64,000 bases of DNA, taken from NCBI RefSeq assembly GCF_963675975.1, contig NZ_OY780939.1, positions 1,612,001 to 1,676,000 on the forward strand, read 5' to 3'. Positions 28,018 to 35,312 of this stretch are shown one piece after another. The number at the start of each line of letters is the position of its first letter. The first letter of the stretch is position 1. The stretch is from Halarcobacter sp. Its GTDB lineage: Bacteria > Campylobacterota > Campylobacteria > Campylobacterales > Arcobacteraceae. Below the pieces are notes generated by a model. That model worked only from the letters and a program-made list of their open reading frames with translations. It had not been told where the DNA came from and did not search any database. The position numbers and the translations under genes were made by a program.

Positions 28018-29088
28018 ATGAGTATACTTACAAAATATATATTAAGAAAATATTTACTTTATTTTATAATTGTTTTAATATCACTTGAACTATTTTTCGT
28101 AGGAATGGATTTTTTACAAAATATAAAAAAACTACCTAGTTCTGCAAATTTACAGTTTTTATATTTAATTTATAATAGTTTTTTCACATTAACTTTAACA
28201 CTTCCACTATCATTAGTTTTTGGTTGGATATTAACACTTGTTATTTTCATTAGAAATAATGAATTGGTTGCATTTACTTCATTGGGTGCAAAAAAGAATC
28301 AAATTTTCTCTCCTGTTATTTATATCTCTTTGTTTTTATTGGTATTACAACTTTTTATACAAATGACCCCTTTGGCATACTCTTATGAACAAAAGAAAAA
28401 GATTTTAGATGGTAATTATTTTACTAATACAAAATCAGATATATTTCTAAAATATAATGATAATTTTGTATTTTTCAAAAAGCTTTTACCTTTAGAAAAA
28501 AGAGCTGAAGGAATACATATTTATAAGGTTCAAAATGATGATATAGTAGAAACAATTATTGCAAAAAAAGCATACTTTCAAAATGATAAATGGTATGTAG
28601 TTGATGCAAAAATTGTTAAAAAGCCTAAATATATGAACTTTGAAAGCTCAAAACTTGAAGTTAGATATGAAAAATTTTTAAATACCTTAGATGGATTTAA
28701 ACCAAAAATTCTTGATAATGTTTATGAAGAAAAAGCAAATTTTTCAATTCTTGATGCTATTTCTGCACTTGATTTATTGTCTAAGCAAGAGATTAATACA
28801 GATAGAATTAGAGCCGCTATTTATTATGATACTTTAGTACCATTTTTTATTTTACCTTTAATGTTTGTGATTTTTGTTTTTGTCTCATATAATAGAAGAT
28901 TTTTTAACATGGGTACATTTACTTCTATGTCAATATTTGCTACACTTGTTATCTGGGGTGTGTTTTTTATGCTTCATAAGTTTTCAAATAGTGGTGTTAT
29001 GAAACCAGAACTCTCATTGCTTTTACCTATGGTAATTTGGTTTATTGTTTCATATATAATTTATAGAAAAAAAAGTAGAGTGTTATAA
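28018..29088 (+). CDS. LptF/LptG family LPS export permease
   Basis: Inner-membrane permease that, with the LptB ATPase, moves lipopolysaccharide to the LptA bridge. 356 residues: two N-terminal helices plus a third before the periplasmic jellyroll (about 125-255), then three C-terminal helices (about 262-350). The N-terminal ILRKYLLYFIIVL and FTSLGAKKNQI coupling segment are typical. LptF and LptG cannot be separated safely without a comparison. Start two bases after pth, with GAAATAAGA; stop overlaps the Nudix ATG by one base. Confidence 0.9.
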   Translation: MSILTKYILRKYLLYFIIVLISLELFFVGMDFLQNIKKLPSSANLQFLYLIYNSFFTLTLTLPLSLVFGWILTLVIFIRNNELVAFTSLGAKKNQIFSPVIYISLFLLVLQLFIQMTPLAYSYEQKKKILDGNYFTNTKSDIFLKYNDNFVFFKKLLPLEKRAEGIHIYKVQNDDIVETIIAKKAYFQNDKWYVVDAKIVKKPKYMNFESSKLEVRYEKFLNTLDGFKPKILDNVYEEKANFSILDAISALDLLSKQEINTDRIRAAIYYDTLVPFFILPLMFVIFVFVSYNRRFFNMGTFTSMSIFATLVIWGVFFMLHKFSNSGVMKPELSLLLPMVIWFIVSYIIYRKKSRVL

Positions 29089-29531
29089 TGACTAAAATAA
29101 ATGCTTATGGTATTGTATTATATAAAATAGAAAAAGATTCCATAAAAATATTATTATGTAAATCTGTTAAGAGTAGAGATAAATGGGGCTGTTTAAAAGG
29201 TATGCAAGTTTCAAATGAAACTCCTAAAGAGTGTGCTAAAAGAGAGTTCTATGAGGAATCATCAATTAAAGTAGAAACTTATCTTTTTGAAGAATATTTT
29301 GAACAAAAGAATGATGAAAAAAATGTAGGAGTTTGGTTAGTAAATACTGTAAAAATACCAAACCTTAGAAACTATTTTTTTGAAGATAAACTTTTAGATA
29401 ATTATCTTTCTTGGGAAAATTCAAAAGTTAAATTTTTTGATTTAAAAGATCTTCCCTCTATAAAGAAAAAACAAAAACATCTATTAAAACAAATTAAGGA
29501 TTTTTTGCAAAATAAGAATCAACACCATTAG
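29088..29531 (+). CDS. Nudix hydrolase
   Basis: 147-residue pyrophosphohydrolase. Nudix box spans about 41-63: G-x5-E-x7-RE-x2-EE as GMQVSNE followed later by REFYEESSI, so the metal-binding REFYEE core is intact but the usual Gly after EE-x is Ser. Preceding KWGCLKG is the usual strand. Substrate unknown. Coupled to the permease (TAATG) and its last 38 bases overlap the 3' end of the convergent amidase gene. Confidence 0.88.
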   Translation: MTKINAYGIVLYKIEKDSIKILLCKSVKSRDKWGCLKGMQVSNETPKECAKREFYEESSIKVETYLFEEYFEQKNDEKNVGVWLVNTVKIPNLRNYFFEDKLLDNYLSWENSKVKFFDLKDLPSIKKKQKHLLKQIKDFLQNKNQHH

Positions 29532-30867
29532 CAATACCAACTGCTAATGCTTCTTGATATCTTTTATTAAAAAGTCTTTTCCCCTCTTTTTTATGTGTGA
29601 TATAACCTATCTCAATTAGTACTGATGGCATTTGTGCTCCAACAAGTACCCAAAATGGTCCTTCTCTAACACCACTATCTACAACATCTTTATGTATCTT
29701 TCTTGCACTATAAAGCATATTTTTTTGTATATCAATTGAAAGTTTATGTGAAGCAGTTATTCTTGGTCTGTTTAATGATTCTAAAAAAGCTTTTTTAGAA
29801 GATCCACTCATTTTTCTTATATCTGATTTATTTTCAAGTGCAGCAACTCTTTTAGCTCTTGCACTTCTTGCTGGACTTAAGAAAAAAGTTTCAATACCTT
29901 GAAGTTTATCAACTTTTGATTTATGTGCTGCATTTGCATGAATAGAGATAAATATATCAGCTTTCTTCTTATTTGCTAGTACTGTTCTGTTTCTAACTTT
30001 GATAAATCTATCACTGTTTCTTGTAATATAAACTTTATATCCTCTTCTTTTTAAGGCATCTTCTAAGTATTTCATTACATCAAATACAGCATATTTTTCA
30101 TACATCTTTTTTCCACGTCCAATTGCACCAGAATCTTTTCCACCATGACCAGCATCTAAAACAACTACTTTATTTAATCCTGGTTTGTATACTTTTGGAG
30201 ATTTTGAAACTTTTACACTGTTTTTTATATTATTTTCTTTTACATCTAATACTTTTAATACAACTCTATTATTGTTTGTAAAATAGATAGTTTTTAAATT
30301 TTTATTATCTTCAAAAAGTATTCTAAGTGTATTTGGGTCTTCTTGTTTAATTACAATTTGATTAACACCATTTATAGATAGTTTTGTTGGATAAGCATCT
30401 TTGAAACTTCCTTTTATATCATAAATATCTTGATAGCCATTTTTAACTTTTTTTTCTTGAAATCTTACAAAGTCTTTATTAACTTTTGTTTTAAAATCAA
30501 TAATAATCATATTATTTCTATCTTCAACAGATTTTATAGTATATTTAGAGTTATCTGATATTGTTCTAATTACTGGTTTAGTAATTTTTTTAGTTTGAGC
30601 TATTTTAATAGGTTCAATTTTTCTTACTTTAGCTACTGAACCATTATATTTTTTTAATTCTTTTTCATATTTTGATACATCTTTATTTAACTTTTTCCCT
30701 GTATAAATTAAAGTTTTAAGATTTTTGATTTCACTATCGCGATTATTATTTAAAACTGCTTTTAGATAGCCTATTCTTGCTTGGGAAAAATCTTCACTAA
30801 GACTAGCAAAAGCAGTTGTAGAGATTGAAAAAATTAAAATTATTAGAAGAAAAAAATTTTTAAAAAT
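29494..30867 (-). CDS. N-acetylmuramoyl-L-alanine amidase (AmiC-like), apparent ATT start
   Basis: Zinc amidase that cuts peptide stems from peptidoglycan, mainly at division. The first in-frame ATG is at 30510, but the frame stays open upstream and encodes a clear signal peptide (KNFFLLIILIFSISTTAFAS) and a coiled linker, so the gene starts earlier. No ATG, GTG, TTG or CTG exists upstream; the best start is ATT at 30865-30867, six bases after a perfect AAGGAG and one base after the upstream stop. That gives 457 residues. Amidase_3 domain from about 232: VVLDAGHGGKDSG (Zn His), SIHANA (second His) and VLIEIGYITHKKE (catalytic Glu). Last gene of the 14-gene leftward run. Confidence 0.88.
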   Translation of the reverse strand: MFKNFFLLIILIFSISTTAFASLSEDFSQARIGYLKAVLNNNRDSEIKNLKTLIYTGKKLNKDVSKYEKELKKYNGSVAKVRKIEPIKIAQTKKITKPVIRTISDNSKYTIKSVEDRNNMIIIDFKTKVNKDFVRFQEKKVKNGYQDIYDIKGSFKDAYPTKLSINGVNQIVIKQEDPNTLRILFEDNKNLKTIYFTNNNRVVLKVLDVKENNIKNSVKVSKSPKVYKPGLNKVVVLDAGHGGKDSGAIGRGKKMYEKYAVFDVMKYLEDALKRRGYKVYITRNSDRFIKVRNRTVLANKKKADIFISIHANAAHKSKVDKLQGIETFFLSPARSARAKRVAALENKSDIRKMSGSSKKAFLESLNRPRITASHKLSIDIQKNMLYSARKIHKDVVDSGVREGPFWVLVGAQMPSVLIEIGYITHKKEGKRLFNKRYQEALAVGIANGVDSYFAKNP

Positions 30868-30868
30868 T

Positions 30869-31942
30869 TTATTCTCCTTTTGTAAGTTTTTCCATTAACT
30901 CATGAACTGAGATCACTTTATCTATTTTATATCCATTTGAACCAGTAAAGAAAAGTCCTGTGTCTCTATCTCCTTGATAAGCTGCTCCTAGTCTATCTGC
31001 AATACAATATCCAACTAGTTTAGCTTCTACTCCTCTATTACATGGAGCAACACAGTTAGAGATACAAACAACTTTTGGTGCAGTTCCATCTTCAATTGAT
31101 TTTTGTAAGTTTGTTCTAACACCTCTTGCTGGTAATCCAACAGGAGATTTCATTAGTTTAATATCATCTTCTTTTGCATCTAGTAATATTTTTTTGAATT
31201 CAGCATCTGCATCACACTCAAATGTACCAATAAATCTTGTTGCCATTTGTACTCCAGAACATCCCATATCCATATATTTATCAATATCGGTTTTGTCCCA
31301 AATACCACCAGCAGCAATTATAGGAGGATTGTTCCAATTTTTTGCTTCTTCAATAACTTCTGGTACAATATTTTCTAATTGGTATTCTTCTTGAAAACAT
31401 TGTTCATAAGTAAAACCTTGGTGTCCACCAGATTTTGGACCTTCAACAATTACTGCATCAGGAAGTTTGTTATATCTTTTCCATTTTTTACAAATAAGTT
31501 TTAAAGCTCTTGCACTTGAAACAATAGGAATTAAAGCTACATCTGGAAAATCTTTTGTAAATTCAGGCATGTTTGTAGGAAGTCCAGCACCTGTTATAAT
31601 AATATTAATACCTGCTTCACAAGCATCTTTTACAATTCTTCCATAATCATTACATGCATAAAGTATATTACAAGCTAAAGGAGAATCCCCACAAATTTTT
31701 CTTGCATTTTTAATTATTGTAGTTAAGGCATCTTTTGAATAAAAGTTTAGAACATCTACTGGCTTATCTTTTTTAGTTTTAATTTCATATTCATCACTTT
31801 TATAATAACCAGTTCCAACTCCAGAAATTACTCCTAATCCTCCTTCAAGACTAACAGTTCCTGCTAATTTGTCCCAGCTTATTCCAACACCCATTCCACC
31901 TTGGATAATTGGGTGTTTTATTTCATATTTTCCTATTTTCAA
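30869..31942 (-). CDS. Nitronate monooxygenase family FMN protein
   Basis: TIM-barrel FMN enzyme of the 2-nitropropane dioxygenase/NMO family, which includes nitronate detoxification enzymes and FabK-like enoyl reductases. 357 residues with PIIQGGMGVGISWDKLAG at the N-terminus, ITGAGLPTN, EGPKSGGHQGF with the conserved His, and PIIAAGGIWD plus GVQMATRFIGT phosphate-binding loops. The Cys-rich CISNCVAPCNRG segment near 290 is common in the bacterial NMO-like group. FabK activity is not excluded. Ten bases after tyrS and one base before the amidase start. Confidence 0.88.
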   Translation of the reverse strand: MKIGKYEIKHPIIQGGMGVGISWDKLAGTVSLEGGLGVISGVGTGYYKSDEYEIKTKKDKPVDVLNFYSKDALTTIIKNARKICGDSPLACNILYACNDYGRIVKDACEAGINIIITGAGLPTNMPEFTKDFPDVALIPIVSSARALKLICKKWKRYNKLPDAVIVEGPKSGGHQGFTYEQCFQEEYQLENIVPEVIEEAKNWNNPPIIAAGGIWDKTDIDKYMDMGCSGVQMATRFIGTFECDADAEFKKILLDAKEDDIKLMKSPVGLPARGVRTNLQKSIEDGTAPKVVCISNCVAPCNRGVEAKLVGYCIADRLGAAYQGDRDTGLFFTGSNGYKIDKVISVHELMEKLTKGE

Positions 31943-31952
31943 AATTGCCCTT

Positions 31953-33161
31953 TTATTTTATTATTATCTTAGCGAAACTTTTTTTACCTTTTTGTAAAAT
32001 ATATTCACCCGCATCTAAATTTAGTTTCTCATCATTTACTTTTTCTTGATTAATACTAACAGCATTTGCCTTTACATCACGTCTAGCTTGCGAAGTTGAA
32101 TTAACAAGTTTAGAATCAACTAAAGCTTGACATAGCCAAATACCAGCTTCCATTTCATATTCTGGCATATCAGTTGGGATATCTTTTTTTGCAAATACTT
32201 TTTCAAATTCTACTTTTGCAATTTGCCCTTGTCCTTGCCCATGAAATCTGTCAACAATCTCCATTGCTAACTCTTCTTTAACTTTTTTAGGATGTAAGCT
32301 TCCATCTTCAACACCAGTTTGAAGCTCTTCAATCTCTTTTAATGATTTTGTTGAAAGAAGTTCATAATATCTCCACATCAACTCATCTGAAATTGAAAGT
32401 GTTTTACCAAACATATCATTTGGTGCATCTGTAACTCCAATATAGTTACCTAAAGATTTAGACATTTTTTGAACCCCATCTAAACCTTCTAATATAGGCA
32501 TCATTAATACAGCTTGTTGTTTTCCTGTATTATATGCTTTTTGTAAAGTTCTTCCCATAAGAAGATTAAATTTTTGGTCTGTTCCACCAAGTTCAATATC
32601 AGTTCCCATAGCAACAGAATCATAACCTTGAAGTAGAGGATAAGTAAATTCACTAACTGCTATTGGAGTATTTGTGGCATATCTTTTTGAAAAATCATCT
32701 CTTTCTAACATTCTAGCAACTGTTAAATTTGAAGCAAGAGAGATAAGTCCACCTGTACCTAACTCTTTTAACCATTTTGAATTGAACTTAACTTCTGTTT
32801 TTTCAGGATCTAAGATTTTAAATACTTGGTCTTTATAGCTTTGAGCATTTTCTAAAACCTGATCTTCACTTAAAACTTTTCTTGTTTCACTTTTTCCAGT
32901 TGGATCTCCAATTGTTGCTGTAAAATCTCCAATTAAAAATTGAACAATTCCACCAAATTTTTGAAATGTTGCCATTTTTTGAATTAATACAGTGTGTCCT
33001 AAGTGTAAATCTGGAGCAGTTGGATCAAATCCAGCTTTTACATAAAAATTTTCACCCTTTTCATAATAGTTTCTAATTAATTTTTCAATTCCTTCAATAT
33101 CAATTATTTCTGCAGTTCCTCTTTGTATTTCTGCAAGGGCTTCTTTTACTTTCTCTTCCAT
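31953..33161 (-). CDS. tyrS: Tyrosyl-tRNA synthetase
   Basis: Class I synthetase charging tRNA-Tyr. 402 residues; HIGH-like LHLGHT (about 52-57), [27 protein letters not shown] (about 233) and a C-terminal S4 RNA-binding domain (about 338-402). This corresponds to the longer TyrZ-like layout. 12 bases downstream of spoT. Confidence 0.97.
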
Positions 33162-33173
33162 TTATCCTCTTTT

Positions 33174-35312
33174 TTATTTATTATATGCATCTTTTTTTGA
33201 GAAAAATTCAATAACTTTTGCTTTTTTCTCTATGATTTTTCTTACCTCTTCTACATTTGAGATATTTATTTCAAACTCTATATCACAATATTGTCTGTAG
33301 GAGTGTTTTTCTCTACCATAATCCACAGATAAGATATATCCTTCATATTGGCTCATATAAGATAGTAATCTAGATAATTCACCTTTAGTATTTGGTAAAC
33401 TAACAACCATTTTGTATTGATAAAGTGTATCTACGGTCCACTTACAAAATAACATAGGTTCATTACTCATAATTTGTTTATAAGCCTTGTCACACATTTT
33501 ATGATGAATTACAGCTTTATTCCCATCTTTAAAAGCTACAATTTCATCAGCAAATTTGGGATGACAACAGTGGTCAAATGATACAGAATTAATACTAAAA
33601 TTTGAATATAAAATCATATTATCAAATTTAAATTTTTTGATTTTACTAGTATATATTTTAAATCTAGCTACAAATCCTCTATCTTGAATGATTTTTTTCT
33701 CAATTTCATGTTTAACATGCTTAAAGTAGTCAATAATTTGGGGCACTTTATATAGTGAATCAAACTTGTAAACAGCTGTAACTTTATCCATATATTTTGA
33801 AAAAACAGTATTAATTATATTTCTACCTGTTAATTCATCAATCTCTTTTAATCTTTGTGAACATAAAAATCTAATCTGTTTTTTTGCTCTATTTGTTTTT
33901 ACCATGTCAATCCAAGAACATCTAGGAATTGCATAATCAACTGTTTTGATTGAAACAATGTCTGAACTATGAAGTTCAGTTAATAATGGTTTTTTGATTT
34001 TATTTATATAACACTCTACTGCATTTTTCCCAACATCTGTGTGAACAGCATAGGCAAAATCATAAGCTGTTGAACCTCTTGGTAAATTAAAAGTGTCTCC
34101 ATGTGGTGAGTATACTACAATCTCTTCTGAGTATAGATTATCTTTTGTATCTTGATAAAACTCTTCCACATTGTCATTTGAGTATTCTAAAGATTTTAGC
34201 CAATTTAGATTTGGTTGATGTTTTAAACCACTTTTATATTTCCAGTGTGCGGCAATACCATATTCAGCAACTTTATTCATCTCAAAAGTTCTAATTTGTA
34301 CTTCATAAATCTTTGAATTGTAAAATACTGTTGTATGTATAGTTTGATAACCATTCTCTTTTGGAGTTGAAACATAATCTTTAAACCTAGATATTAAAGG
34401 TTTATAAGCTAAGTGTAAAAATCCTAAGACTTTATAACAATCAATATCTTCAGGAACTAAAATTCTAATTGCAAGAAGGTCAAGAATCTCATCAATTGTT
34501 ACACCTTTTCTTTGCATCTTTAGATATATAGAATAGTAGTGTTTTATTCTACTGTTAATTTGCACAGTATTTAAATCAAAACCATTTTTTTCTAAAACTT
34601 GTTTTGTTGAAGATATAAATTTATTAAAAGTTAATTGAATAGCATGTTGATGCTCAATCATAAAGTCGTCAATTTTTTTATACTCTTCTGGATAGATGTA
34701 ATAAAATGCTAAATCTTCAAGGGTATTTTTAACTGTAGAGATACCAAGTCTATGTGCAATTGGAACATAAACAACAAGTGTTTCTTCTGCTATTCTTTTT
34801 TGTTTATTTTCTGGAAGTGCTGAAAGTGTTAACATGTTGTGAAGTCTATCACAAAGTTTGACAATTAAAACTCTTACATCATCAATTGAAGCAATTAACA
34901 TTTTTCTAAATGTCATAGCTGAAGATATTAGTTTTTTGTTTGAATCTGATGGTGGTAATTCATGCTCTCTAATAGCATCAATTTTAGTTAATCCATCAAC
35001 CATATGGGCAACATTGTCACCCCAGTTTTCCCTAACAAAGTCTAAAGTATATTCAGTGTCTTCCACAACATCATGAAGTAATGCAGTAGCAATAATATCT
35101 TCATCTTTAGAAAAGTGAGATACAACAGTCGCAACAAGAATAGGGTGTATTACATAAGGTTCGCCACTTTTTCTAAATTGACCCTCGTGAGCTTTAATTG
35201 CAAAATCAATTATACTCTCAAGTTTTTGGCTTACTTTTGTTTCTTTATGTAGTAGTGCAATAGCATCATCCAAAGTATTAATACTTTGAACTTTTAAAAT
35301 AAACGGATCCAT
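33174..35312 (-). CDS. spoT: Bifunctional (p)ppGpp synthetase/hydrolase, SpoT/Rsh type
   Basis: The stringent-response alarmone enzyme. 712 residues: N-terminal HD hydrolase domain with LLHDVVEDTEYT (HD intact, so hydrolysis likely), CDRLHNMLTL, synthetase domain with RIKHYYSIYLKM and YVSTPKENGYQTIHT (about 310-325), TGS domain (about 390-450; SPHGDTFNLPRGSTAYDFAYAVHTD) and a C-terminal zinc-finger/ACT region (DHCCHP near 572; ACT about 635-705). Typically the sole long Rsh in Campylobacterota. Follows rpoZ, as in many bacteria, with a hairpin between. Confidence 0.96.
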   Translation of the reverse strand: MDPFILKVQSINTLDDAIALLHKETKVSQKLESIIDFAIKAHEGQFRKSGEPYVIHPILVATVVSHFSKDEDIIATALLHDVVEDTEYTLDFVRENWGDNVAHMVDGLTKIDAIREHELPPSDSNKKLISSAMTFRKMLIASIDDVRVLIVKLCDRLHNMLTLSALPENKQKRIAEETLVVYVPIAHRLGISTVKNTLEDLAFYYIYPEEYKKIDDFMIEHQHAIQLTFNKFISSTKQVLEKNGFDLNTVQINSRIKHYYSIYLKMQRKGVTIDEILDLLAIRILVPEDIDCYKVLGFLHLAYKPLISRFKDYVSTPKENGYQTIHTTVFYNSKIYEVQIRTFEMNKVAEYGIAAHWKYKSGLKHQPNLNWLKSLEYSNDNVEEFYQDTKDNLYSEEIVVYSPHGDTFNLPRGSTAYDFAYAVHTDVGKNAVECYINKIKKPLLTELHSSDIVSIKTVDYAIPRCSWIDMVKTNRAKKQIRFLCSQRLKEIDELTGRNIINTVFSKYMDKVTAVYKFDSLYKVPQIIDYFKHVKHEIEKKIIQDRGFVARFKIYTSKIKKFKFDNMILYSNFSINSVSFDHCCHPKFADEIVAFKDGNKAVIHHKMCDKAYKQIMSNEPMLFCKWTVDTLYQYKMVVSLPNTKGELSRLLSYMSQYEGYILSVDYGREKHSYRQYCDIEFEINISNVEEVRKIIEKKAKVIEFFSKKDAYNK

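Follow-up and report, generated by a model that had tools for sequence, protein, structure and literature searches.

The 64,000-nucleotide stretch of the Halarcobacter sp. genome that we analysed, hereafter the window, carries a tight cluster of four genes on its minus strand. The first encodes a RelA/SpoT-type (p)ppGpp synthetase/hydrolase (33174..35312; Pfam HD_4, RelA_SpoT and TGS). It is followed by the tyrosyl-tRNA synthetase gene tyrS (31953..33161; Pfam tRNA-synt_1b), by a gene for a nitronate monooxygenase, NMO (30869..31942; Pfam PF03060, E = 8.7e-83), and by a gene for an N-acetylmuramoyl-L-alanine amidase of the Amidase_3 type (29494..30867; Pfam PF01520, E = 1.3e-45). The gaps between successive genes in the order rsh-type gene, tyrS, NMO and amidase are 12, 10 and 1 bases. 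At its 3′ end the amidase gene converges on a plus-strand NUDIX hydrolase gene (29088-29531), and the two overlap by 38 bases (29494-29531). The first start codon of the NMO gene is a TTG at 31940-31942 (AGGGCAATT TTG AAA ATA), so that two adjoining genes of the cluster apparently have non-AUG starts.

The reading frame of the amidase opens after a stop codon at 30897-30895 and runs TGG AAA AAC TTA CAA AAG GAG AAT AAA, then ATT TTT AAA AAT. The sequence-only reading had placed the start at this ATT (AUU in the mRNA; 30865..30867, minus strand) and had claimed that no canonical start codon lies in frame upstream of the first ATG at 30510. Inspection of the codons confirmed this: counted from the ATT, that ATG is codon 120, and GTG, TTG and CTG are absent from the entire frame. 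The ATT is preceded by a Shine-Dalgarno sequence (SD), AAGGAG (30874..30879), which lies inside the last sense codons of the NMO gene (AAA GGA GAA), and by the spacer AATAAA (30873-30868), which overlaps the NMO stop codon TAA (30871..30869). The spacings given earlier, six bases from AAGGAG to ATT and one base from the preceding stop, are exact.

Read from the ATT, the amidase is a protein of 457 amino acids. It begins with a signal peptide, MFKNFFLLIILIFSISTTAFA (30805..30867; cleavage point inferred), followed by a linker and by the Amidase_3 domain at residues 235-450. The metal-binding and catalytic motifs of the HEHE type were found (DAGHGG, YEKY, SIHANA and EIGY), and the nearest solved structures are AmiA (8c2o) and AmiC (4bin). 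The signal peptide is encoded only when translation begins at the ATT. Sixty open reading frames of the window have conserved counterparts in syntenic relatives, and among these sixty the amidase is the outlier, since its first canonical codon lies 128 codons from the opening of the frame; the next highest distances, 52, 27 and 25 codons, belong to one shadow open reading frame and to genes with an ordinary ATG. No second ATT start was found among the other 59 conserved open reading frames of the window.

If translation began instead at the ATG at 30510, which is the sole canonical start available to an annotation program, the part of the frame upstream of it would be untranslated. Such a start would remove the signal peptide together with 119 codons that align to relatives as protein, and it has no SD. 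In 97 close pairs of genomes the first 30 codons of the amidase gave a pN/pS of 0.33 in their own frame, compared to 0.79 and 1.74 in the shifted frames, a value that places codons 2-30 under constraint at the protein level. The translation and this coding-type ratio agree with the earlier claim that the open frame upstream of 30510 encodes a signal peptide and a linker. Moreover, the first downstream canonical codon of most relatives lies near codons 29-40 and not at a place homologous to 30510. We therefore regard initiation at 30510 as extremely unlikely.

In order to compare the start site between species, we searched for the amidase gene in related genomes. It was present in 15 of the 16 genomes searched in the genus, 101 of 104 in the family and 385 of 399 in a sample of the order. 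The NMO-amidase junction was read in 140 loci (about 100 family genomes and 41 loci outside the family), and in every one of them the NMO gene lies directly upstream of the amidase gene. In diverged loci the start codons were assigned by eye from a table of in-frame codons. Seventy-five of the family genomes, belonging to 13 genera that include Arcobacter, Malaciobacter and Poseidonibacter (according to the titles of named hits), form what we refer to as the core clade; AUU, AUA and AUC are collectively termed AUH. The genera named agree with the Arcobacteraceae, the family in which the sequence-only reading had proposed to look for relatives.

The amidase start codon is ATT in 67 core genomes, ATA in four, ATC in three and TTG in one; ATG, GTG and CTG do not occur. 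One of the 67 ATT assignments (L087) is ambiguous, as a TTG follows directly 3′ of the ATT. Within the genus, the ATT is common to all 15 genomes with the amidase gene. When the ATT was first seen there was nothing beyond a single genome to set against an error of sequencing or assembly that turned ATG into ATT, and the sequence-only reading had named an ATG at the same position in relatives as the observation that would speak against it. No relative in the genus has one, and AUH occupies the site in 74 of the 75 core genomes. As the ATT is common to relatives, such an error is excluded, its probability being practically nil, and the ATT is confirmed as real.

None of the 74 core genomes with AUH has an in-frame ATG, GTG, TTG or CTG upstream of it. 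The stretch between the opening of the frame and the AUH is just four or five codons long in 33 of them, which leaves no alternative start in the right place. A basic and hydrophobic, signal-peptide-like N-terminus follows the AUH in all 74, as judged by hydropathy and not by a dedicated predictor. Downstream, the next canonical codon is mostly reached past the signal peptide; codons 29-40 are its usual place, and in the present genome it is codon 120. Taken together, these comparisons make the placement of the putative amidase start at the ATT 30867-30865 well supported.

The distance between the NMO stop codon and the AUH is 0, 1 and 2 bases in 2, 20 and 52 core genomes, respectively, and it differs even within single genera (g1, g2 and g18). 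The spacing between the SD and the AUH stays at 5-7 bases across the core clade despite the changing gap. These observations bear on the possibility that the amidase is an extension of NMO, made by programmed frameshifting or by readthrough of the stop codon, in which case the ATT would be merely an isoleucine codon. Consistent with such a fusion, the codon varies only among isoleucine codons, in proportions that resemble those of other isoleucine codons, and in many genomes the amidase frame runs unbroken past the NMO stop. However, each of the three possible frames of the amidase with respect to NMO occurs, close relatives differing in this too, and the amidase is never lost; this combination in effect excludes a fusion of this kind. 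In addition, the signal peptide would be buried within a soluble enzyme, and the NMO stop codons are TAA or TAG with no common slippery context. We consider the fusion very unlikely.

The SD is written into the coding sequence of NMO, whose C-terminus is Gly-Glu-stop. In 74 of the 75 core genomes the terminal glycine codon is GGA (70 genomes) or GGG (4 genomes), while elsewhere in the same NMO genes these two codons make up half of the glycine codons (1355 of the 2734 that were fully read). In the rest of the family, where starts are mostly canonical, GGT or GGC is common at this position. GGAG or GGGG lies 5-7 bases before the AUH in 73 of 74 core genomes. Across the family, GGAG or GGGG was present in 74 of 75 AUH genomes compared to 10 of 24 genomes with a canonical start (Fisher p = 7e-10, not corrected for relatedness). 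Once shared descent was taken into account, about six independent pairs contributed to the association between SD and AUH, of which on average 3.2 were concordant, 0.1 discordant and 2.7 not differing (sign test p ~0.25). Selection thus appears to hold the SD within the NMO codons, although the case for it is thinner after the correction for descent. GGAG or GGGG is lacking from just one AUH genome of the family (L057, genus g13; GGTGAATAAAAATT), which has kept the ATT; this genome is fragmented and the locus lies near a contig end.

Outside the core clade the start codon is more variable. Deep-branching members of the family (g6, g8, g9, g10, g12 and g20) have a TTG, ATG or GTG start, and g11, represented by a single genome (L061), has an ATT. 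Most other families use a canonical start, usually ATG or GTG, that often overlaps the NMO stop codon. AUH starts were found in three of them: family f4 has ATA in all three loci (L129, L136 and L143), family f18 has ATT or ATC in five of six (L112, L113, L114, L149 and L132), and family f7 has ATT in two of seven. A distant metagenome-assembled genome (L038) has a CTG start. Mapping these codons on the NMO tree gave 10 changes between AUH and canonical starts. The AUH start would thus be either ancient, with several losses, or the outcome of several separate gains.

We also asked how much the letters at the start codon reveal by themselves. The share of ATT among the core AUH starts (67 of 74) is barely above that at the most ATT-rich conserved isoleucine codon of NMO (66 of 75), and at 15 of 85 conserved four-fold degenerate NMO codons G is lacking in every core genome. 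With such controls the base counts alone are no proof of selection, and the claim that ATG is selected against, when drawn from letter counts alone, was rejected as too weak given the 15 of 85 control codons.

The same controls bear on a further explanation, in which the AUU serves as the start without any selection for low output. It would be a relic that is tolerated and free to drift between AUU, AUA and AUC, since coupling to NMO and the strong SD would make the identity of the codon nearly irrelevant. The three codons do swap within one genus, and in these AT-rich genomes third-position G is rare, so that ATG may seldom arise; for this reason the lack of reversion to ATG is only moderately informative. 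Against drift, AUG is the norm in most sister families, and yet, with deep sampling at the level of genera, ATG or GTG was regained in none of the 75 core genomes and TTG in one. We consider a relic of this kind rather unlikely, while giving it appreciable weight.

Other features that could accompany an unusual start were sought as well. The RNA at the NMO-amidase junction folds no more strongly than shuffled sequences (z = -1.06). No initiator tRNA with an altered anticodon was seen in the loci around 51 tRNA hits, where the initiator-type tRNAs carry CAU and tRNA-Ile carries GAT. Elsewhere in the genome, outside the window, lies a 93-nt tRNA-like gene (G000:C1:891350-891442, minus strand; L208:151-243 and L210:1501-1593) with a long variable arm, a CUA (amber) anticodon and an encoded CCA. 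It was called tRNA-Pyl by ARAGORN, scores above the Rfam tRNA cut-off and adjoins a Peptidase_U32 gene (PF01136). Among the 104 genomes of the family, similar tRNA-like genes were found in only two others; the anticodon is CUA in one of these and CCG in the other.

In E. coli, infC and pcnB start with AUU. The amidase resembles them in that a chromosomal gene has AUU as its sole possible start behind an SD, an arrangement thought to keep output low. It differs in encoding a periplasmic amidase, in having its SD inside the preceding gene and in implying no autoregulation by IF3. The infC gene of the Halarcobacter genome itself (near 1003404-1003613, L151) starts with TTG and overlaps the thrS stop codon, unlike the AUU of E. 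coli.

Two Staphylococcus aureus genes, cvfC1 (AUU) and ccpN (AUA), have conserved starts with a strong SD that yield about 10% of the output of AUG in poor medium (PMC13009471). The AUU or AUA start conserved among relatives and the strong SD are shared with the amidase, whose start differs in lying 0-2 bases after an upstream stop codon and in interchanging AUU, AUA and AUC. In Borrelia burgdorferi pncA/BBE22 the true N-terminus of PncA is at an AUU, and the database entry is a truncated protein (PMC13398362). There, as probably here, AUU is the true start of a protein that annotation otherwise cuts short, but the Borrelia start was demonstrated by essential N-terminal residues and not by export; the protein has no signal peptide, and no argument from coupling is involved. 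Among studied periplasmic amidases of the order, the nearest one found by our literature search is AmiA of Campylobacter jejuni (PMC6767375). In contrast to the core clade, the family that we read as Campylobacteraceae (f10, name inferred) starts its amidase with ATG in four of five loci and with GTG in one, overlapping the NMO stop codon.

The reading that we consider likely is that the amidase is initiated, through its SD and probably by coupling to NMO translation, at a weak AUU, and that this yields low amidase output. Translation would begin with fMet at the AUU 30867-30865, on which the AAGGAG inside the last NMO codons would position the ribosome. Most likely, many of the initiating ribosomes or 30S subunits would come straight from termination on NMO, one base upstream. 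The AUH codons are poor partners for fMet-tRNA, and IF3 rejects the complexes formed on them. For both reasons each pass would yield little amidase, while the yield would be kept above zero by the strength of the SD and by ribosomes arriving from the end of NMO. In E. coli, excess IF3 reduces reinitiation at a coupled start, and does so less when an SD is present (PMC2268962). The signal peptide, which depends on the ATT, would then direct export of the amidase, whose level is expected to be low, to track NMO translation and possibly to respond to IF3. The place of the start, its deep conservation as AUH, the kept SD with its spacing and the independence from the NMO frame are borne out by the comparison of genomes. 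Termination-reinitiation coupling, sensitivity to IF3 and selection for low output of the hydrolase are parts of this scheme that we infer. A limited output tied to NMO translation would fit the anatomy of the junction and the published AUU cases.

A broader version, which we put forward tentatively and hold to be somewhat short of probable, is that a deliberately weak AUH start fed by ribosomes terminating on NMO governs a division or cell-wall amidase family-wide. The synthesis of the amidase would then read the availability of IF3 and 30S subunits as well as the translation of the rsh-tyrS-NMO operon, and the same device would operate in at least two further families. If true, its presence in further families of the order would reflect descent or convergence.

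Our literature search, which covered few subscription journals, found no earlier report of a non-canonical start for this amidase. To our knowledge, very few bacterial genes have been described with a conserved AUU, AUA or AUC start. AUH starts themselves are thus already known; the amidase is a new and unusually well conserved case, with the added feature that the AUH lies at a conserved stop-start junction and that its SD is encoded by the preceding gene. Annotations of the amidase are probably truncated and lack the signal peptide; in the window, starting at the first ATG, GTG or TTG costs 119 residues. The amidase is able to damage the cell wall, and the AUH start of its gene can be traced here across about 75 genomes from a single clade. 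As a natural test, the case bears on two questions: whether selection favours weak starts for the limit they set on output, and whether such starts are rescued by coupling.
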